Shown: positions 3,440 to 11,852, counted from the first letter of the stretch. The stretch is 64,000 nt of DNA from Candidatus Obscuribacterales bacterium (GCA_019744775.1 JAIETZ010000001.1:310001-374000); one strand, 5' to 3'. A program made the numbers and translations. Notes: generated from the letters alone by a model not told the origin.

Positions 3440-3562
3440 TTAAAACTCGGCGACGAGTCCGAAGCAGGCAATCAATACGATGCAGGCAAAGTAAAAGGCG
3501 AAGAACCATCCCCAGCGGATGATCATTTCAATTTCGCTTACTTTTGGTTGTGCAGCAGCCAT
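3440..3562 (-). CDS. 40-residue single-helix membrane protein, last gene of the respiratory operon
   Basis: A short frame beginning MAAAQPKVSEIEMIIRWGWF, followed by one strongly hydrophobic helix (about residues 17-37) rich in aromatic residues and two Cys, ending in VAEF. Its ATG directly follows the TAA stop of the MvhD-like gene with no spacer (TAAATG), so translation is very likely coupled. Size and position are like those of the tiny single-helix subunits common in cytochrome bc and cbb3 complexes. I recognise no named family. It could be an accessory subunit stabilising the cytochrome b or iron-sulfur subunit (inference). Confidence 0.65.
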   Translation of the reverse strand: MAAAQPKVSEIEMIIRWGWFFAFYFACIVLIACFGLVAEF

Positions 3563-3976
3563 TTACTTAGCCTCCGTTATGCTATTTAGGGTTTGCAGAT
3601 GTCCGACAAACTCCTTAGCTTCCGAAATAAAACGCTTGGTTTGCAATCTGGATAACCAGAGAGCGACAACACGTCTTCTATCGACAGTTTTCTTCAAACC
3701 TGGTGGACGCTCGCCCAAAAGGCGTTCGCGAATCATCTTATTGCCTTCGCGATAATAGCAATCGCCAATCTGGCAGCCACAAACAATTACGCCCTCAGCA
3801 CCGGCTTTCAGAGCTGCTTCAATCATCAAAGGTTGAATCATGCCGCTGCAGGGGAACTTAATGACCGTAACGTCAGGTGCATCTTTCAGGATACCCTTCT
3901 CATCCATCTCGCGATCAAGATCAACTGCTCTTTCACAGATGAGGGTGATTACTGTCTTCTTTTTTGTCTCGACCAT
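3563..3976 (-). CDS. MvhD/FlpD-family iron-sulfur electron-transfer subunit
   Basis: 137 residues matching the methyl-viologen-reducing hydrogenase delta subunit family (PF02662): PCSGMIQPLMIEAALKAGAE followed by VCGCQIGDCYYREGN. In known complexes this [2Fe-2S] protein passes electrons between a redox partner and a heterodisulfide-reductase-type flavoprotein. Here no hydrogenase or HdrA gene is nearby; the gene sits between a cytochrome b-ferredoxin fusion (23 bases upstream) and a 40-aa membrane protein. Of the usual N-terminal CxxC only the first Cys (C14) is kept; the equivalent of the second is Ala. A basic insertion (KKTVDRRRVV) near residues 95-104 is also atypical. AGGAGT precedes the start. 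It is likely cytoplasmic and docked on the membrane complex (inference). Confidence 0.88.
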   Translation of the reverse strand: MVETKKKTVITLICERAVDLDREMDEKGILKDAPDVTVIKFPCSGMIQPLMIEAALKAGAEGVIVCGCQIGDCYYREGNKMIRERLLGERPPGLKKTVDRRRVVALWLSRLQTKRFISEAKEFVGHLQTLNSITEAK

Positions 3977-3999
3977 GATAAGACCGACTCCTGAAATAA

Positions 4000-5151
4000 C
4001 TAAGACTGAGCTGCTGCTTTGATTTGGTTGGAAACATCGCTATCGAGCAAATTGGGTAAATCAATTGCATCGAAGGCACAGGCGCCAACGCAAAGTCCGC
4101 AGCCGGAACAACGATATGACTTAACTGTCGCCAGAAGTTTGAAACGACTGCCGGCAGGTGCCGGCACCATATCAATTGCTTCATAGGGGCAATCTTTATC
4201 GCAAAGCGAACAACCGGTACATTTTGTAAGGACTACTTCTGCTGTTTCCACAGGCTTGGTTCTTACAAACCAAGGAACTGCCGTGAACAGGATTACACCG
4301 CCAATCATCAACGCCCAGAAGAATCCTAAGGACATCTTGGTCATCATCCAGTAAGGCCAGAGGAAGAACCAATCTATTTCAAAGGATGTTGGGGTTTGAG
4401 TTAACTGAGCCATTGTTCCGCTTTGAATTGGGAACATGGCGACAACAGCCAGAATAATAGCTACAAGGATGTAGTTAATTACAGGCGGTGGTGTCAAAAC
4501 CGGACGTGCCATACGCACATAGTGAACCCACAAGCCGAAAAGGAGCATGAAGGACAAACCGATGTGAATAAAGAGGTAGTTGGATAAGGTGAGGTTGGTT
4601 ATTTCCTTGCCGTTGATAAACCAATCTTTCAATGGCTGACCAATAATAGGCAAAGCCTCAAATGCCGACACTGTCATACGAGTAAGCAAGAGTGAGCGTT
4701 CATCCCAAACAAGGTAATAGCCTGTTTGACCAATGAAGAGCACAGCTAATAGAAGAACTACTCCTGATACCCACTGCACCCAACGATACTGTCTATAGCG
4801 GTCGGTAAACCAAACTCTTAACACGTGCAAGATGATAGTGAGTACCATAGCGTCACCGGCATAACGGTGCAAACCGCGAAACACAGCTCCAAATGGAATT
4901 GTCTTGGTTATGTAATCAACTGATGTCCAAGCGTTAATAAGTCTTTCAGACGCATAAGCATTATCAATGGTTGGAATGTAGTAAGCGAAAAGCAAAAGAC
5001 CCGACAAAAAGAGCACCCACAGATAAAACTGTGGCAGCGCACCGTGGTAATAAAACGGGTTGTACTTGCTTGTTGCTATAACGTTAGTCCAGTGCTCAAG
5101 CCACAAGGTAGCCTTGTTTAGCGGATCTGTGTATAGCTTATGCATCACCAT
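4000..5151 (-). CDS. Cytochrome b (b6-type N domain) fused to a 2x[4Fe-4S] ferredoxin
   Basis: 383 residues. Residues 30-300 form a cytochrome b with all four heme ligands in two His-x13-His pairs: H95/H109 (LHRYAGDAMVLTIILH) and H196/H210 (FIHIGLSFMLLFGLWVH). The position of the Qo PEWY motif reads EIDWFF (about 258-263). After the last helix a C-terminal ferredoxin domain carries two clusters, C311xxC314xxC317xxxC321P and C348xxC351xxC354xxxC358. Such a fusion would give heme b a soluble-side iron-sulfur outlet or inlet, next to the MvhD-like gene. Start MVMHKL follows AGGAACAAACAAT; a second ATG two codons on is possible. It lies in the operon between a small membrane protein and the MvhD-like gene. 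Confidence 0.93.
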   Translation of the reverse strand: MVMHKLYTDPLNKATLWLEHWTNVIATSKYNPFYYHGALPQFYLWVLFLSGLLLFAYYIPTIDNAYASERLINAWTSVDYITKTIPFGAVFRGLHRYAGDAMVLTIILHVLRVWFTDRYRQYRWVQWVSGVVLLLAVLFIGQTGYYLVWDERSLLLTRMTVSAFEALPIIGQPLKDWFINGKEITNLTLSNYLFIHIGLSFMLLFGLWVHYVRMARPVLTPPPVINYILVAIILAVVAMFPIQSGTMAQLTQTPTSFEIDWFFLWPYWMMTKMSLGFFWALMIGGVILFTAVPWFVRTKPVETAEVVLTKCTGCSLCDKDCPYEAIDMVPAPAGSRFKLLATVKSYRCSGCGLCVGACAFDAIDLPNLLDSDVSNQIKAAAQS

Positions 5152-5211
5152 ATTGTTTGTTCCTATTTACTTACTCACCAGATAGGCTGAACGCCCCTAC
5201 AAAACCAAAAA

Positions 5212-5559
5212 TTATTTCAACGGTAGAACTGTTTTTTCCTCTGCGTCTTCACGACCGATTACGGCTATGCCAATCGCAGCAGAAATTAGAGCTAATGCCA
5301 TGAAAAAGCCGTAGACGTAATATGGAGCATTTACGTCATCTTTGAGATACGAAAAATTGTTGTTCACGAAGGCAATTGCCGGTTGAAGCAGTCCGGAAAT
5401 TCCCAGGGTATCGGCAAATTGCTTACCCCAATCGGAGCCGGGAATAGATGGAGTCAAAAGTCCGAATTCGGCCCAGGGCATCATAAAGGTCATGCCCAGA
5501 CAACCGGCGGCGAAGATAAGGACCAAAACTATCGGCAAAAATCTGTCGCGAGCGCTCAT
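5212..5559 (-). CDS. Small two-helix membrane protein of the respiratory operon
   Basis: 115 residues with one hydrophobic segment near the N-terminus (FLPIVLVLIFAAGCLGMTFM) and another near residues 82-103 (YVYGFFMALALISAAIGIAV), joined by a polar loop of about 50 residues that is probably periplasmic. AAGC at residues 17-20 resembles a lipobox but lacks a basic N-region and sits within a full-length helix, so a membrane-spanning protein is more likely. Its ATG overlaps the TGA of the upstream gene (ATGA), showing translational coupling. No family is recognised; the conserved place between two cytochrome b genes suggests a complex subunit. Confidence 0.75.
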   Translation of the reverse strand: MSARDRFLPIVLVLIFAAGCLGMTFMMPWAEFGLLTPSIPGSDWGKQFADTLGISGLLQPAIAFVNNNFSYLKDDVNAPYYVYGFFMALALISAAIGIAVIGREDAEEKTVLPLK

Positions 5560-5879
5560 CGAATACCTCCGCTAGCCTGACTGTTAACCCGTCTCATTAA
5601 ACGCACCTGCATTTTCTCGAAAAGCTCGATGCGCTTTTTCAAAGTACCTTTGTCTTTTTCCTCAAAGTAAATCCAGTATGACTGGACACCCAAAAGAAGA
5701 ATCGTAAACACTGTTCCTGAAGCGAGCAAAAGCCAATCGGCAAATACCGCGGTTTCATGAATTTGTCGCCATCCGGCAAAGAACCAGGAAAGCGTAATGA
5801 CGGAGGCTACAAAGGCAGTAAGACGAAATGCCCAGTGGACTTTTCGTGGATTTATTGCTTGGACTTCCTTCTGACTCAC
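5556..5879 (-). CDS. Small two-helix membrane protein of the respiratory operon (GTG start)
   Basis: 107 residues starting MSQKEVQAINPRKVHWAFRL. The GTG at 5879 is chosen because GGAG lies six bases upstream and it avoids the 100-base overlap with the preceding cytochrome b gene that a longer frame would need. Two hydrophobic segments (about 18-35 and 48-68) are followed by a charged C-terminal helix (YFEEKDKGTLKKRIELFEKM), which may be a short coiled coil on the cytoplasmic side. It begins 20 bases after the large cytochrome b and ends in an ATGA overlap with the next gene. Function unknown; probable accessory subunit. Confidence 0.75.
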   Translation of the reverse strand: MSQKEVQAINPRKVHWAFRLTAFVASVITLSWFFAGWRQIHETAVFADWLLLASGTVFTILLLGVQSYWIYFEEKDKGTLKKRIELFEKMQVRLMRRVNSQASGGIR

Positions 5880-5898
5880 GATTTCTCCAATTGCAATG

Positions 5899-7689
5899 CT
5901 ACGACGCTTGTGCCGAAGCTTGTGTTTGTGTTGCTTGAACCTGACTGGATTTCTTACACCACCACATGGTGCCGAAACCAGCGACCATAACAACAGCGCC
6001 GGCAATCATCCAAACCCAATCAAGATCGGGCACCGGCATAGGATATGGCGGGTTGCCTGGAATTGGTTGGGCCAAAACTGACGTGCCGATACCTTCCATG
6101 CGATCGACATAAGTGGCGTAGTCAAAACACCAGCGGTTGGAGACCATGAAGTCAATCAAGCCGTTGTACTTGATACCTTCAATAAATGTCGGCGCAGCGG
6201 CAAAAATGCCGTCAAGTGGTGTCGACTGTTTGCAGATGTCGGCAATCTTAGTTACAACTGCTGGAATATCTCCACCTTTGGCGATTATTTCGTGGTAGTT
6301 CCAGTAAGGAATACTGCCTTTAACTCCTTCACGTACAAGCTCCTCGGCAGCTTTAGCATTGTCGCCCATAAATGGTCTGAATGCTGCGTACGTCCAAGCT
6401 TGTGTGATTGGCGACATGAACATTTCTGTTCTCGCCATGAAGAAATAAACAATGGCAACAACAGTCTGAACAAGTCCAACTATGCCCATAACCATGGCAG
6501 CAAATGCACCTTTGGCCCTTTGAACCAAATTGGTTTCTTTCCAGATGAGCGCTAATTGCAAAAGAACGCCGATATCGATCATTAGGTAAAGACTGTCACG
6601 CCAGTACGGCGGATCATTGTGGATGTTGGCGATGTTGACAATGATGAGGAACGAGAAAACAATCCAGTTAACAAGTCCCATAAGTGCCACCCAGAAAATA
6701 ACCGGTCGTTTGTTGATGTCCTTTTCCGGTCCTGTCAGCCAAACATCAATGAACGGCAAAAGAACAACAGACAATGGAATTAACATCGTAATTTCTGTAG
6801 CTACAACCGGCTCGAGGTACTTATACATTTGATACAAGCCCAAGAAGTACCAGTCAGACAAAATAGGCAATGGCGTTACATCTGGATTGGAACGTCCACC
6901 AAGAGCCGCCGGCAAAATAATTGCCACAACCGCAATCATCAAAGTGACAATAATGCGCTTGGTCCAATTGATATTAATACGCTTGTAACCTGTCTTATAG
7001 AAATACAGCTCAACAAAGATGAGCGGTATTAATGAGAAGGCTAAGTGCAATGAGAAAAAGCGCGTAATTGTTTCTTGAGTAATAGCGCCGCCGGCACCCA
7101 ATAGAAATTCAGCCGTATTCCAACCCATGTGCATGGACTTAACCAGAGGCAAGTAGAAATCACCCATGCCCGGGAATTGGTCCATATAGGTTGGGAATGT
7201 GGCGAACACTTTTGTAGCCCAAAATGCGCGCTGGTTCCAGATGAGCAGATACCCAGTCAAACCGGAATACATAGATAGTAAGAGCGTTACAAGACCAATA
7301 GCAATGTTGAATTCCTTGCCTGGTTTGTAGTCTGCATTGATAAACATACGGAACATACGGATAGTGGCTGCAATAATCATCGCGTCCGCGCCGTATTTGT
7401 GCATGCCTCTCACGACGTTACCGAAAAGGATGCCGTGCTGAATGTTCAAGATTGAGTCATAGGCAGCCGCTTTGGTCGGGATGTACCACATAATCAAAAC
7501 GAGTCCGGTGAACATAACGATCATCCAGACCAGGTAGAAAATTGAACCGATGGCATAAAACGGGTTGGTCTTTGCCTCGAGTTGGTAATGTTCGTCAAAG
7601 AGATCAATGTTGGCTATGCGTGTTTTAAGCCAATCGTTGGTTGCAACTAATGCCCCCATTAGCCCCGCATTTTTAGTTGTACTAGGCAA
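5899..7689 (-). CDS. Large divergent cytochrome b subunit lacking one heme ligand pair
   Basis: 596 residues with a cytochrome b core and a long C-terminal extension. H97 (RGMHKYGADAMI) and H215 (FFSLHLAFSLIP) match the first His of each canonical pair, but the partners 14 residues on are R111 and Y229. By analogy with bc1/b6f the bL ligands are kept and the bH ligands lost. The Qo motif is SDWY (278-281) in place of PEWY. Several more helices follow, then an approximately 130-residue soluble segment without CxxCH, and a C-terminal helix (WVWMIAGAVVMVAGFGTMWW). The frame starts at a TTG overlapping the Rieske stop, with GGAGG upstream; ATG at codon 11 is an alternative. Confidence 0.9.
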   Translation of the reverse strand: MPSTTKNAGLMGALVATNDWLKTRIANIDLFDEHYQLEAKTNPFYAIGSIFYLVWMIVMFTGLVLIMWYIPTKAAAYDSILNIQHGILFGNVVRGMHKYGADAMIIAATIRMFRMFINADYKPGKEFNIAIGLVTLLLSMYSGLTGYLLIWNQRAFWATKVFATFPTYMDQFPGMGDFYLPLVKSMHMGWNTAEFLLGAGGAITQETITRFFSLHLAFSLIPLIFVELYFYKTGYKRININWTKRIIVTLMIAVVAIILPAALGGRSNPDVTPLPILSDWYFLGLYQMYKYLEPVVATEITMLIPLSVVLLPFIDVWLTGPEKDINKRPVIFWVALMGLVNWIVFSFLIIVNIANIHNDPPYWRDSLYLMIDIGVLLQLALIWKETNLVQRAKGAFAAMVMGIVGLVQTVVAIVYFFMARTEMFMSPITQAWTYAAFRPFMGDNAKAAEELVREGVKGSIPYWNYHEIIAKGGDIPAVVTKIADICKQSTPLDGIFAAAPTFIEGIKYNGLIDFMVSNRWCFDYATYVDRMEGIGTSVLAQPIPGNPPYPMPVPDLDWVWMIAGAVVMVAGFGTMWWCKKSSQVQATQTQASAQAS

Positions 7690-8254
7690 TTCCCCCGGCC
7701 TCCAGTGATAAGACTGCTATCTTGTCTCCGTCCTTTTTCAGCTCAAAGCGTCTTGGTGGTCTAGGAGCAGGACCCGATACCACCTTGCCGCCCTGGGCAA
7801 TATCATAAACGCTCAAGTGACACGGACAAGCAAATACTGGTCCGTTTGGCTTATAGTTATAGCCTTTAGCGCACTCTTCAGGATCTTTGACGAAGTTGAA
7901 CACGCAGCCTAGGTGCGGGCAAATGCGGCTGTAAGCAACCTTTTCACCATCAGGTAGGCTGACGATAAATCCTGGAATCTTACGAACTTCCTGACCTTCC
8001 GGGTTGTATTCCTTGTAGGTCTGTTCAAACATGAAGGGGATACATGTCCAAGCATCCGGAAAATCTGAATCCTTGAACTCAACTTCCTTCTTCGGCTTTG
8101 GTTGATCGGATGGACCGAGCAAATCCAACGGCTTAATCGTCGGTCTCAAAAAGCGCAATAGCGGTGAAGCTACCAAACCAAAGGTAAATGCCAATGGAAT
8201 GGCGGCTGCTGTCTTGAGAATAAGTCTTCTTGATGTTCCCTCGGTCATTTTCAT
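7682..8254 (-). CDS. Rieske [2Fe-2S] protein
   Basis: About 190 residues. The cluster motifs CPHLGC and CPCHLS are both present with the usual spacing for a bc-type Rieske protein. The N-terminus TSRRLILKTAAAIPLAFTFG is a twin-arginine type membrane anchor, as expected for Rieske proteins inserted by Tat. The chosen ATG follows AAGGA by four bases; a second ATG two codons later has more typical spacing. It would accept an electron from quinol at the Qo site and hand it to cytochrome c. The neighbours are a diheme cytochrome c upstream and the 596-residue cytochrome b downstream, with an 8-base overlap with the latter. Confidence 0.95.
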   Translation of the reverse strand: MKMTEGTSRRLILKTAAAIPLAFTFGLVASPLLRFLRPTIKPLDLLGPSDQPKPKKEVEFKDSDFPDAWTCIPFMFEQTYKEYNPEGQEVRKIPGFIVSLPDGEKVAYSRICPHLGCVFNFVKDPEECAKGYNYKPNGPVFACPCHLSVYDIAQGGKVVSGPAPRPPRRFELKKDGDKIAVLSLEAGGIA

Positions 8255-8291
8255 CACATCCTTTGAGCACGTTACTATTGCTACTCTATCC

Positions 8292-9143
8292 CTATTTCTT
8301 TTCAATTGCTGATGGGTTCTGCTGCGAAGCCGGCACATTTAAGCCAACCGCTACCGTAGGCTCGTTGGAGCTATGGAAGTGGCGTACAAATTGCACAAGC
8401 TTCTTGATGTAAGCCTCATCAAACTTCACGTTCTTGGCTCTGTCTTGCTTATTCAAGAAGTTGGGCATGCCTTCCCATTTAATGCCATTGGCGATGTGAT
8501 CCCAAAGGACATCATCAGTTCTGTCGAAGAATCTATTGAACTGGTGGAAGTTAGCAGGCACCGGCTGAAGAGCAAAGTTCTTAGTAAGAGGTCCATCTCC
8601 GTGTCCACGCTTACCGTGGCAAACGGCACAGTTGGCGCCAAATACTGCGTCCATATCGTCAATTTCTTTCTGAGCCAACGGCGGCACAGCGATTGAACGT
8701 GTGTAGAAAACCAAATCCCATACTTGCTTACGCGAACAGGCGTCCTTCAAAGATGGGTGGTTGACCTCATGTCCGGCGACAATTGCCGAACCTTCAGCCA
8801 TTGGTTTGCCATAAGTCAAGAAATAGTAAAGATCTAAAGGCTTTTGCTTGTGGACCATAACTTCGTTGCTCAAATCAACGGTAGTTTTGTTGGCCACGCC
8901 TTTACCGTCAGCCCCATGGCAGGCAGCACACTGTTGTTTTTCATAGACGACCTTACCATCCGGAATGGACGGGTTATCATCCGGGAAAATGACCACATCG
9001 GCAGCTTCTGTAACCTGACGGCTGGCAATTTTGTCATCTGCGCCTTTGAGAGTTACTTGTTCAGTACAACTGGACAAGGAAATAGCTGCCGGCAAGGCAA
9101 CTAAAAGGCTTAGTGTTTTCCACGAAAAGGTCTTGTTCAACAT
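8292..9143 (-). CDS. Diheme cytochrome c lipoprotein
   Basis: 283 residues. The start MLNKTFSWKT gives a lipoprotein signal with lipobox LSSC (C26), so the mature protein is probably anchored to the periplasmic face. Two class I cytochrome c sites are visible: CAACHG (C72, C75, H76) and CAVCHG (C172, C175, H176). It lies between the cbb3 oxidase genes and the Rieske gene and is the natural electron carrier between the cytochrome b complex and the oxidase (inference from context). The ATG is one base after the stop of the 59-aa gene (TAAGATG). Confidence 0.93.
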   Translation of the reverse strand: MLNKTFSWKTLSLLVALPAAISLSSCTEQVTLKGADDKIASRQVTEAADVVIFPDDNPSIPDGKVVYEKQQCAACHGADGKGVANKTTVDLSNEVMVHKQKPLDLYYFLTYGKPMAEGSAIVAGHEVNHPSLKDACSRKQVWDLVFYTRSIAVPPLAQKEIDDMDAVFGANCAVCHGKRGHGDGPLTKNFALQPVPANFHQFNRFFDRTDDVLWDHIANGIKWEGMPNFLNKQDRAKNVKFDEAYIKKLVQFVRHFHSSNEPTVAVGLNVPASQQNPSAIEKK

Positions 9144-9144
9144 C

Positions 9145-9324
9145 TTAATATCCAAAGAAAGGTATCCATGAAATAGAAGCCCAAATGACGATGATGGCAA
9201 AAGCCACAATCAAGAAGAGAGGCGGTGGTCCTTCGCCGATTCGATATTCGGCGACTTCTTCGTAGTGTTCAGTTGGTTGTACAGCATCTGCTGCTGCGCC
9301 TTCTGGCTTTTTCTTTTCTGCCAT
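9145..9324 (-). CDS. 59-residue single-helix membrane protein
   Basis: A short frame starting MAEKKKPEGAAADAVQPTEH, with an acidic/polar N-terminal half, a PPP turn, then one hydrophobic helix (LFLIVAFAIIVIWASISWIP) and a C-terminal FFGY. AGGCGGG lies just upstream, and the stop is one base before the cytochrome c start. In position it resembles the tiny CcoQ/CcoH-type subunits of cbb3 oxidases, but I cannot assign it to either family by sequence. Codon use is like that of its neighbours. Confidence 0.72.
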   Translation of the reverse strand: MAEKKKPEGAAADAVQPTEHYEEVAEYRIGEGPPPLFLIVAFAIIVIWASISWIPFFGY

Positions 9325-9334
9325 TTTTTCCCGC

Positions 9335-9544
9335 CTAGCTACTTAACTGAGTTTGACCATGAGTTGCTGTCGGCTCATCGGTCATCATGTCGTACTTAAC
9401 TGATTCCATGTCTTCGAACTCGCCGTTACGGAAAGCCCACCACATGGCTGCAATTCCCACCACAAAGAACAAGAAGCAGACGCCAAAGGCCACATAGAGA
9501 CCTGGTGAAATGCCGACTTGATTCAAGATGCAATTAGGACACAT
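9335..9544 (-). CDS. ccoS: CcoS-type cbb3 oxidase assembly protein
   Basis: 69 residues with one membrane helix followed by the CcoS-like pattern WWAFRNGEFEDMES and a short acidic tail. In the family the equivalent is WAxxxGQFDDLE. CcoS is needed for cofactor insertion into cbb3 oxidases. The N-terminus has an extra CPNC pair, which could bind a metal. The gene starts two bases after the stop of the ccoO-type gene, so it belongs to the same operon. Confidence 0.8.
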   Translation of the reverse strand: MCPNCILNQVGISPGLYVAFGVCFLFFVVGIAAMWWAFRNGEFEDMESVKYDMMTDEPTATHGQTQLSS

Positions 9545-9546
9545 GC

Positions 9547-10467
9547 TTAGTTACCACCTGAATGAGGTTCCCACTCTTGTTCTGTCAACTTGGGTAAGTG
9601 TACTTGTCCAACTTTGTTCAATTGATCAAGTTTGTCGACAGTGATTTCCTGGTTTTGCGGCAGAGTCTTCAAATATGCCACCAGGTACCAGCGCTCTTCT
9701 TCAGTCAAAATTTCGTTGAAGCGCGGCATGCGAGTACCAGCCACACCTTCGCTCACGCGATAGAACCAGAACGCATCCGGATACTGCTTGTAAAACGCTC
9801 TTGTGAAGTTAGCAGGCTTTTTCTCCAGTGAAATGGAGTTTGGTCCGTTGCCTTCACCTTCAAGTCCGTGGCAAGCAGCGCAGTTTTGCGTGTAGATACC
9901 GCGACCGGCATTAGCTGCCGCATCAGAATTGGTATCAACGGTCTTTTTCGGTAAGTAAACAAGTTCGTATTCAGCCGGTGCTTCCACATATGCATGAACT
10001 GTTCTCTGGTTACCCAATGTTTGAATGTAGGAAACCAAGTCGTTCATGTCACGATTGGACAAGTGGCTGAAACTCGGCATGATTGAACCGGGCTTAACAG
10101 CACGCGGGTTAATCAAGTGAGCCTTTTGCCATTCCGAGGGAAACTTGCCGCCCTCGTTGGTCAGATCCGGACCGGTTCTGGCTGTGCCTAATTGGTGCGG
10201 TGTTTCCCACACATAGTCACCAGCTTTAACAAGCGGTCCATATCCTCTATCTTGCAAACGCGTAAATTGCGTGTGGCAATAGAAGCAACCTTCACGCACG
10301 TAAATTTGACGACCTCTAGCCGGGTTGACCTCAGAGGTTTTTACGTATTTGTTGTAACTCTTAGACGGTACCGGATTAAAGAGCACCATCGGCAGAAGTA
10401 CAGTAGCTGTAATAATCGTAAAAAAGGTAATTACGATACCAATTGCACCAAGGCGATAGCCGTTCAT
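9547..10467 (-). CDS. ccoO: CcoO-type membrane cytochrome c with an added C-terminal cytochrome c domain
   Basis: 306 residues: an N-terminal membrane anchor, then the CcoO signature REGCFYCHTQFTRLQDRGYG (heme c ligands C61, C64, H65; distal Met probably M130 in GSIMPSF). A second class I domain follows with CAACHG (C196, C199, H200) and GTRMPRF. Canonical CcoO is monoheme and the diheme CcoP is a separate gene; no ccoP is present here, so this fusion may replace it. The start ATG overlaps the ccoN stop (TAATG). Confidence 0.9.
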   Translation of the reverse strand: MNGYRLGAIGIVITFFTIITATVLLPMVLFNPVPSKSYNKYVKTSEVNPARGRQIYVREGCFYCHTQFTRLQDRGYGPLVKAGDYVWETPHQLGTARTGPDLTNEGGKFPSEWQKAHLINPRAVKPGSIMPSFSHLSNRDMNDLVSYIQTLGNQRTVHAYVEAPAEYELVYLPKKTVDTNSDAAANAGRGIYTQNCAACHGLEGEGNGPNSISLEKKPANFTRAFYKQYPDAFWFYRVSEGVAGTRMPRFNEILTEEERWYLVAYLKTLPQNQEITVDKLDQLNKVGQVHLPKLTEQEWEPHSGGN

Positions 10468-11852
10468 TAGGCCTTCACCTCCGCCGTCTTAGCATCGGCT
10501 GCTTTTGCTGCCGGTGTGTACAACGACTTGAATGCATTGTAGGCAAATATACATTGTCCGAGCACAATCATGACTCCACTGACTGCTCTTAGTCCCCAGT
10601 AAGGACGAATCTGCAGTCCCCATTGATCAACTGGCACACCGAATGCCCAACCTGCTGATTGAATCAAACCGGCAATGGTGAGTGACACCATCATCAGCAA
10701 GAATCCTAAAAACTTCAGCCAGTAGTGAGCACGAATAAGACCTTGGCTGTGCCAGTCGCGCCCAGTAATTCTAGGCAGACCGTAATAAATAGCCGAGGTC
10801 AAAATAAAGGAAAACGTTCCAAGCAATGCCAAGTGAGCGTGTCCGACTACCCACTGAGTAAAGTGCAGGTACCAGTTGACCCAACGTGTTGCTTGAAATG
10901 GTCCTTGCACGCAAGTAACTAAATAGAACATGCAAGAAGTAACGGCAAAACGCAATGGCATATCTGTGACAACCTGTTGCCACTTGCCCTTCATGGTCAT
11001 GAAGAAGTTTGTCAACACGGTTAAAACAGGTACCAAAAGAAATACCGATGAGATAACGGCAATTGCTTTGAGCCATTCAGGTACAGGCGATTGCAAAATG
11101 TGGTGAGTACCAGTCGGTGCATAGAAAAGTGCAATACCCCAGAAGCCCAACATGGAAAGACCGTGGCTATATAAAGGAGCATTGGTCAGTCTTGGCAAGA
11201 GGTAATACATCATGCCGACACCAACTGTCGTGAACCACATACCAAGGATGTTGTGTCCGTAGAACCAACCGACAATAGCATCGTTCAAACCAGGCAAGGC
11301 AACGAAAGTACGCTGACCGATGATGTAAACCAGTGGAAACCAAAATAGTGCGCCCAGGAAATACCAGAGCGATACATATAGTTTCTTGACCTTTCTGTTT
11401 ACGACGGTCATATAAACGTTGGCGGCAATTGTGACAAGCGCAATTGCTACAAGCACATCGAGTACGGCGCCTAGTTCGGCGTATTCACGACCTTCTGTCG
11501 AACCATTGATCAAAGTACAAAAGGCACCAACCATCACGGCATTCCATGCCCACATAGTAAAGTTGCCCAGGCGCTCCGACCAGAGCTTTGTCTTGGCCAG
11601 AGACGGCACCATGTAATACATGGCCCCAACATAACCCATGGACAGCCAGCCTACGGCGACTGCGTTAACGTGCCACATGCGCAAGTGTGGAAAAGACAGT
11701 TGTGGAATGTTGTGGATGAGGTCTGGCATGGAGAATTCGAGTCCCCCAAGCATCCCTGCTCCCATTCCTAAAATTGACCACCAGATGGCGGACAGTATGA
11801 AGTTTCTGGCAGCGCTGCCTTCACGATTGCTTAAAACGGCGTCTAGTAACAT
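10467..11852 (-). CDS. ccoN: cbb3-type cytochrome c oxidase subunit I
   Basis: 461 residues with about 12 membrane helices. Ligands expected for a C-type heme-copper oxidase are present: H61 (RMWHVNAVAVGWL) and H340 for low-spin heme b, H338 (VVGHAH) for heme b3, and CuB ligands H200 (GHN), H250 and H251 (THH). The C-family catalytic tyrosine is present six residues before the HH pair (Y244 in FYAPTGTHH), which separates it from NO reductases. It is the first gene of the 12-gene operon; GGGG lies five bases before the ATG. It would reduce oxygen with electrons from the c-type cytochromes encoded downstream. Confidence 0.96.
   Translation of the reverse strand: MLLDAVLSNREGSAARNFILSAIWWSILGMGAGMLGGLEFSMPDLIHNIPQLSFPHLRMWHVNAVAVGWLSMGYVGAMYYMVPSLAKTKLWSERLGNFTMWAWNAVMVGAFCTLINGSTEGREYAELGAVLDVLVAIALVTIAANVYMTVVNRKVKKLYVSLWYFLGALFWFPLVYIIGQRTFVALPGLNDAIVGWFYGHNILGMWFTTVGVGMMYYLLPRLTNAPLYSHGLSMLGFWGIALFYAPTGTHHILQSPVPEWLKAIAVISSVFLLVPVLTVLTNFFMTMKGKWQQVVTDMPLRFAVTSCMFYLVTCVQGPFQATRWVNWYLHFTQWVVGHAHLALLGTFSFILTSAIYYGLPRITGRDWHSQGLIRAHYWLKFLGFLLMMVSLTIAGLIQSAGWAFGVPVDQWGLQIRPYWGLRAVSGVMIVLGQCIFAYNAFKSLYTPAAKAADAKTAEVKA

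Follow-up and report, generated by a model that had tools for sequence, protein, structure and literature searches.

The locus described here raises the question of why a single bacterial operon should encode two different cytochromes b. It lies in a 64,000-nucleotide stretch of DNA, the window, from JAIETZ010000001.1 (positions 310001-374000; GCA_019744775.1), part of the 4.1 Mb genome of a Candidatus Obscuribacterales bacterium, an order of non-photosynthetic relatives of the cyanobacteria. Twelve genes, all on the minus strand between positions 3440 and 11852 of the window and spaced by 60 bp or less with several overlaps (as judged from Pfam, NCBIfam and open reading frames), encode among others a cbb3-like oxidase, c-type cytochromes, a Rieske protein, the two cytochromes b, here called CytB1 and CytB2, the second fused to a ferredoxin domain, and a protein of the FlpD/MvhD family. 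Comparison with related sequences indicates that each cytochrome b has lost what its partner keeps, haem bH in the case of CytB1 and the features of the quinol-oxidation (Qo) site in the case of CytB2. This complementarity is the most telling feature of the cluster and was overlooked in the preliminary description of the window.

The key residues were compared in 64 CytB1 and 70 CytB2 sequences aligned to b6 and bc1 (L217_bc1, extracted in the wrong frame, was left out). In CytB1 the histidine pair that ligates haem bL, His97 and His215, is kept in every sequence. The pair for haem bH is replaced, the first histidine by arginine (55 sequences) or lysine (nine) and the second by tyrosine in all 64. 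In CytB2 all four of the haem-ligand histidines are present in 70 of 70 sequences. The hot spot of the Qo site, which we take to be the equivalent of Gly143 in yeast and Gly158 in Rhodobacter capsulatus, was located with the WGA motif of canonical bc1 as anchor; it is glycine in bc1, and alanine both in b6 and in the ordinary cytochromes b that these genomes also encode. Alanine is also found here throughout CytB1 (64/64), with leucine or isoleucine throughout CytB2 (70/70). Similarly, the PEWY-type motif reads SDWY in all 64 CytB1 sequences, but in CytB2 the tyrosine is never present and the tryptophan is also gone in 14 of the 70. Profile alignment to b6 structures gave the same complementary pattern. 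Of the hallmarks of a bc complex, the cytochrome b fold and the Rieske protein are present (Pfam; CytB2 model), two bis-histidine haems per cytochrome b are found in CytB2 and not in CytB1, and the Qo features are kept in CytB1 only. CytB1 is predicted, then, to be unable to hold a bis-histidine haem bH, with the bL ligands and the Qo features retained.

CytB1 also carries a C-terminal extension of about 250 residues (window 5899-6650) with extra membrane helices and little conservation between orders. An AlphaFold model of CytB1, for which 12 sequences were supplied, was of too low a quality for use (predicted local distance difference test, pLDDT, 52). No CytB1-like protein was found in 393 genomes of another phylum, a result that is uninformative by itself. 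In CytB2, His36 is invariant (71/71) and adjoins the site at which b6 has its haem-ci cysteine; it is possible that it serves as a ligand to an extra haem or to a quinone, and several of the fusion relatives described below have a histidine at the cysteine position itself. A covalent haem ci is unlikely because the equivalent of b6 Cys35 is tyrosine in CytB2 and is not a cysteine in CytB1.

The pattern has an engineered counterpart. In a cross-inactivated bc1, in which one half carries G158W and the other H212N, bL-bL transfer supports catalysis (PMC4330944); there too one half is without haem bH and the other is bulky at the Qo hot spot. Judged by sequence, the same two losses are found here, one in each half. 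Since bL-bL transfer is the sole route in the engineered pattern and CytB1 and CytB2 mirror it, electrons should have to pass from bL to bL here also. The present pair differs in being natural and fixed across three orders, in its substitutions, tyrosine with arginine or lysine and leucine or isoleucine, and in the ferredoxin-FlpD arm that is added to it.

Seventy named loci were examined, among them those of Obscuribacter phosphatis (L100) and Vampirovibrio chlorellavorus (L142), of which 45 were long enough to contain the whole cluster. In all 45, drawn from the Obscuribacterales, Caenarcaniphilales and Vampirovibrionales, the seven core genes are in the same order, so that the comparison of gene order with related genomes, proposed as a check in the preliminary description, came out in favour of conservation. 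All 12 genes are found in identical order in 16 sampled loci of Obscuribacterales. The order is also kept in four loci from records titled Caenarcaniphilales, where most of the main subunits are 46-59% identical and the dihaem c cytochrome about 32%. Even the last protein, of 40 residues, recurs, with 58-72% identity within Obscuribacterales and 32-43% in Caenarcaniphilales. Because the core order is invariant and even so small a protein recurs in another order, the gene cluster is real and old, beyond chance. The fusion of CytB2 to ferredoxin is present in 48 of 53 genomes of Obscuribacterales and in all 22 of good quality. Apparent breaks in the order at L103, L106, L126, L136 and L141 were rejected, the contigs being cut and a paralogue having taken the match. 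Two records of metagenome-assembled genomes titled Chloroflexi and Proteobacteria (L082 and L117) hold the cluster at 93% and 67% identity, respectively; as this is the level seen within Obscuribacterales, both look to be mislabelled.

The ferredoxin domain of CytB2 has the motifs for two 4Fe-4S clusters, with all eight cysteines conserved in about 70 sequences apart from one exception at one site, and in FlpD, over a similar number, Cys14, Cys43, Cys68 and Cys73 are invariant. FlpD scores above the curated cut-off of PF02662 in addition to having these cluster cysteines, and matches the MvhD structure 5odc_D in the PDB with an E-value of 1.7e-20. Together the ferredoxin domain and FlpD align with consecutive stretches of HdrA2, namely its C-terminal ferredoxin-MvhD tail. 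In the AlphaFold model of the CytB2-ferredoxin fusion (pLDDT 84.7; predicted template modelling score 0.80) residues 16-300 superpose on bc1 cytochrome b with Z scores of 23-27 and the ferredoxin domain comes directly after the last membrane helix; by analogy with the known topology of cytochromes b it would be on the cytoplasmic side. No second FlpD was detected in the source genome, which makes it unlikely that FlpD is used by an Mvh/Hdr system apart from this cluster. The operon contained no Hdr, hydrogenase or formate dehydrogenase gene at any of the loci, although HdrA was not searched for genome-wide. The preliminary description had regarded the MvhD and ferredoxin parts as the least explained; the match to the HdrA2 tail and the existence of a wider family of cytochrome b-ferredoxin-FlpD fusions now explain them in part.

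That family emerged when 84,980 species genomes were scanned. Records labelled Gamma-, Alpha- and Deltaproteobacteria, Spirochaetes and Chloroflexi contained single-chain cytochrome b-ferredoxin-FlpD proteins, and in the phylum to which one Chloroflexi-labelled record belongs such a protein is present in 10 of the 350 genomes sampled. In a tree CytB2 and the fusions form one clade (ultrafast bootstrap 100) with CytB1 as sister; the tree was built on 203 columns and has long branches, with the root as its weak point. CytB2 shares ancestry with the single-chain fusions, which are its closest relatives outside its own phylum. They too are bulky at the Qo position, and no Rieske protein was matched in their clusters; five of the genomes that bear a fusion have a separate, ordinary cytochrome b. 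Each of the eight long fusion loci has nearby a CuA-type subunit and a haem-copper subunit I, the latter sharing 43-52% identity with its counterpart in locus L150. Where it was read directly (L150, L151, L156 and L159) the active-site tyrosine of subunit I is replaced by glutamine, the active-site residue listed for eNOR, an NO reductase (PMC8756737, Table A4). Pfam identifies the neighbouring genes upstream of the distant fusions as COX2 and COX1, and an assignment as NuoE/NuoF was rejected. Locus L150 (8271-11518, plus strand) has two fusions in tandem, of 514 and 535 residues, beside one eNOR-like oxidase, which is possibly a second way to build a unit with two cytochromes b. In the Chloroflexota fusions (L196-L204) the FlpD domain is mostly without its cysteines, and the arm has therefore changed or lost its function there.

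The oxidase itself appears from its sequence to be a divergent member of the C-family (cbb3). The best NCBIfam matches of CcoN are to the cbb3 models PRK14485 and ccoN, and these, like the matches to ccoO and ccoS, score under the equivalog cut-offs; the Pfam families COX1, FixO and FixS are all matched above cut-off. CcoN has a tyrosine six residues ahead of the HH pair (Y-x5-HH) in 56 of 56 relatives, and no tyrosine at GHN+4, the motif there being GHNIL. By this pattern the active-site tyrosine would be carried by helix VII, and not placed at His+4 of helix VI, as is characteristic of the C-family. Two CxxCH motifs are found in CcoO in 58 of 58 relatives and in the dihaem c cytochrome in 55 of 56. 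The latter has ccoP as its best NCBIfam match, below cut-off, and is also QcrC-like, making it a candidate for the linker between the Rieske protein and CcoO.

2-Oxoacid:ferredoxin oxidoreductases are present in eight of eight genomes. NuoF, the NADH-binding subunit of complex I (PF01512), was detected in only one of 13, being found neither in the source genome nor in 11 of 12 relatives; NuoD was found in all seven tested. In the source genome the complex I genes, A-B-C-D-H-I onward, are on contig C2 (L194:5673-11929, minus strand), and no NuoEFG is seen in the locus.

We consider it somewhat probable that the product of the cluster is a Rieske/cytochrome b complex of asymmetric build, made together with a cbb3-family oxidase of its own and equipped with an iron-sulfur arm in the cytoplasm. 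CytB1 would form one half of a dimer and CytB2 the other. Quinol would be oxidised at the Qo site of CytB1, the first electron passing from the Rieske protein through the dihaem c cytochrome, CcoO and CcoN to O2. Because CytB1 is without a bis-histidine haem bH, the second electron would need to cross from bL of CytB1 to bL of CytB2, then to bH of CytB2, and would there reduce quinone at the negative side (n-side) of the membrane. The FlpD-ferredoxin arm may feed low-potential electrons from the cytoplasm to haem bH or the n-side quinone of CytB2, a possible source being ferredoxin reduced by the 2-oxoacid:ferredoxin oxidoreductases, and quinone would thereby be reduced by electrons from both directions. 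In the fusions, where there is no Rieske protein and the Qo residue is bulky, quinol oxidised on the positive side is probably not the source of electrons. This, with the presence of the 2-oxoacid:ferredoxin oxidoreductases and the general failure to detect NuoF, gives a modest preference for the arm as an inlet rather than an outlet. Complexes III and IV, whose genes share this conserved operon, may also form a stable supercomplex. The fuller proposal, a natural and obligatory heterodimer joined bL to bL in which Qo- and ferredoxin-derived electrons jointly reduce quinone on the cytoplasmic side, is more tentative, and we would put its chances a little short of even. The preliminary description is upheld as to gene content and order, and the cluster is conserved; a unit connecting quinol, O2 and a cytoplasmic carrier is plausible, and its assembly into a single complex is only deduced.

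Several points weigh against these proposals. Haem bH of bc-type complexes usually lies well above ferredoxin in potential, and without coupling an inlet would therefore be wasteful of energy. No cytoplasmic partner for FlpD was identified, and the heterodimer, the supercomplex and the direction of electron flow are all inferred from sequence. That leucine or isoleucine would block the Qo site of CytB2 is argued by analogy to G158W. Finally, since lysine in place of histidine gives a functional haem bH in an engineered bc1 (PMC4807273), an odd haem might be held at the bH site of CytB1 through tyrosine or lysine. With tyrosine or arginine/lysine-tyrosine ligation of a second haem the complex would be an ordinary two-haem dimer with altered potentials. 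The lysine of nine of the 64 CytB1 sequences would fit this, but both ligands have changed, arginine is present in 55 and the partner is always tyrosine, which makes it decidedly unlikely.

The arm may instead be an outlet of the same asymmetric dimer, with the low-potential electron on bH of CytB2 pushed by way of ferredoxin and FlpD onto an acceptor in the cytoplasm. Such quinol-based bifurcation, pulled by the reduction of O2, is similar to the idea put forward in the earlier description. The bH of CytB2 would be the sole haem-bH acceptor for Qo electrons, the ferredoxin domain directly follows the membrane part, and a complex I with no detected NuoF could use the reduced carrier. However, haem bH does not readily reduce low-potential iron-sulfur clusters, and as the fusion homologues carry the arm with a bulky Qo residue and no Rieske protein, it did not evolve there as an outlet for Qo electrons; we regard the outlet as rather unlikely. 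Those same fusions, which have neither a CytB1 partner nor a Rieske protein in their clusters, would be consistent with there being no shared dimer at all, CytB1, Rieske protein and oxidase making a one-haem complex and CytB2-ferredoxin and FlpD a separate module, linked to quinone or to an oxidase and retained in the one operon. Given that the two defects complement each other exactly and are conserved together in three orders, with the CytB1 and CytB2 genes always together in complete loci, this seems highly improbable. It is barely credible that the arm is vestigial or merely structural, as the loss of the FlpD cysteines from most Chloroflexota fusions might suggest, when virtually every one of the roughly 70 sequences here retains the cluster cysteines.

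The coordinates of the 12 genes are listed below. From the 5' end the intergenic gaps are -1, 2, 10, 1, 43, -8, 19, -4, 60, 23 and 0 bp, negative values being overlaps.

Genes of the cluster, in order from the 5' end, with positions counted from the first nucleotide of the window
Feature	Position	Strand	Evidence
CcoN-like catalytic subunit, C-family haem-copper oxidase	10467..11852	-	PF00115, 279 bits (cut-off 34.8)
CcoO-like subunit with second haem-c domain, two CxxCH	9547..10467	-	PF02433 FixO, 111.9 bits, and Cytochrom_C
CcoS/FixS-like cbb3 maturation protein, 69 residues	9335..9544	-	PF03597 above cut-off
59-residue protein, single transmembrane helix	9145..9324	-	No family match; kept across loci
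Dihaem c-type cytochrome, lipoprotein-like signal	8292..9143	-	Two c domains
Rieske 2Fe-2S protein	7682..8248	-	PF00355, 36.1 bits (cut-off 20.3); motifs CPHLGC, CPCH
CytB1, cytochrome b with C-terminal extension	5899..7689	-	PF00033/PF00032
Small membrane protein A, 107 residues	5556..5879	-	Open reading frame, GTG start; position conserved
Small membrane protein B, 115 residues	5212..5559	-	Open reading frame; position conserved in Obscuribacterales
CytB2-Fd, cytochrome b fused to two-cluster 4Fe-4S ferredoxin domain (residues ~300-370)	4000..5151	-	
FlpD/MvhD-like 2Fe-2S candidate, four invariant cysteines	3563..3976	-	PF02662, 73.1 bits (cut-off 22.3)
40-residue protein, single transmembrane helix, final gene	3440..3562	-	Recurs at same place in relatives

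Pfam, NCBIfam and the coordinates bear out the 12 closely spaced minus-strand genes of the preliminary description and all of the parts that it named; its four tiny membrane proteins are present, and become five once CcoS is counted. The small proteins other than CcoS gave no convincing family in Pfam or NCBIfam, and the 59-residue protein is possibly a detached membrane anchor of CcoP. A scan of the cluster for consensus promoters and terminators gave results no better than shuffles. Elsewhere in the source genome, on contig C13 at about 37.7-39.0 kb (L192:4716-6029, plus strand), a NarI-Rieske fusion of 438 residues (PF02665 and PF00355) is found in an operon with NarG, NarH and NarJ-like genes. 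Genes for an ordinary cytochrome b and for a c cytochrome with one haem come next, and by sequence this would be a second case of a bc complex connected to a terminal reductase.

Supercomplexes of the bc1-cbb3 and bcc-aa3 types (Pseudomonas aeruginosa, 8smr; engineered Rhodobacter capsulatus, PMC7876108; actinobacteria) likewise combine a bc complex with a haem-copper oxidase. Actinobacterial QcrC is a dihaem c linker, as the dihaem c cytochrome here may be. Unlike the present cluster, these supercomplexes have a single cytochrome b, forming a symmetric dimer, and no ferredoxin/FlpD arm. In the HdrA2 tail and MvhD of methanogens (PMC6019823) a dicluster ferredoxin is also followed by MvhD, four of whose cysteines are kept here, but in this cluster the HdrA flavin domain is absent and a cytochrome b bears the module. 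The cytochrome b-ferredoxin-FlpD domain set is a table entry, RME88945.1, in PMC8756737. These single chains, in whose clade CytB2 falls, have the same three modules in the same order; they differ in having FlpD fused, no CytB1 or Rieske protein in the cluster, and an eNOR-like subunit I with a CuA subunit rather than a cbb3 oxidase.

The combination of complexes III and IV in Melainabacteria (Obscuribacter; HO7A and BJ4A) has already been published (PMC6349859). The lineage is the same and the type of cluster surely so, with cytochrome b6-like and Rieske genes by a C-family oxidase; the accessible part of that paper describes petB and petC beside the oxidase and does not mention the CytB split, the ferredoxin fusion or FlpD. 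Complexes I-IV with a cbb3 oxidase are reported in Soo 2014 and Soo 2015. In the literature covered, which was partial and had Soo 2017 (Science) and the supplements outside it, no description of the split, the fusion or FlpD was found, nor, with similarly partial coverage, was MvhD/FlpD found described in this arrangement with a Rieske/cytochrome b complex. The apparent novelty is thus the division of labour between two cytochromes b, although its priority is uncertain.

The role of bL-bL transfer in working bc complexes is disputed and has been argued with engineered mutants. A lineage in which the two jobs are split between subunits would be a natural test of it. It has long been proposed that in cyclic electron flow cytochrome b6f links ferredoxin to quinone, and the arm at the cytoplasmic face of CytB2 resembles a wired form of that proposed link, in non-photosynthetic relatives of the cyanobacteria. 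It also suggests how bacteria in which no NuoF is detected might feed their respiration.

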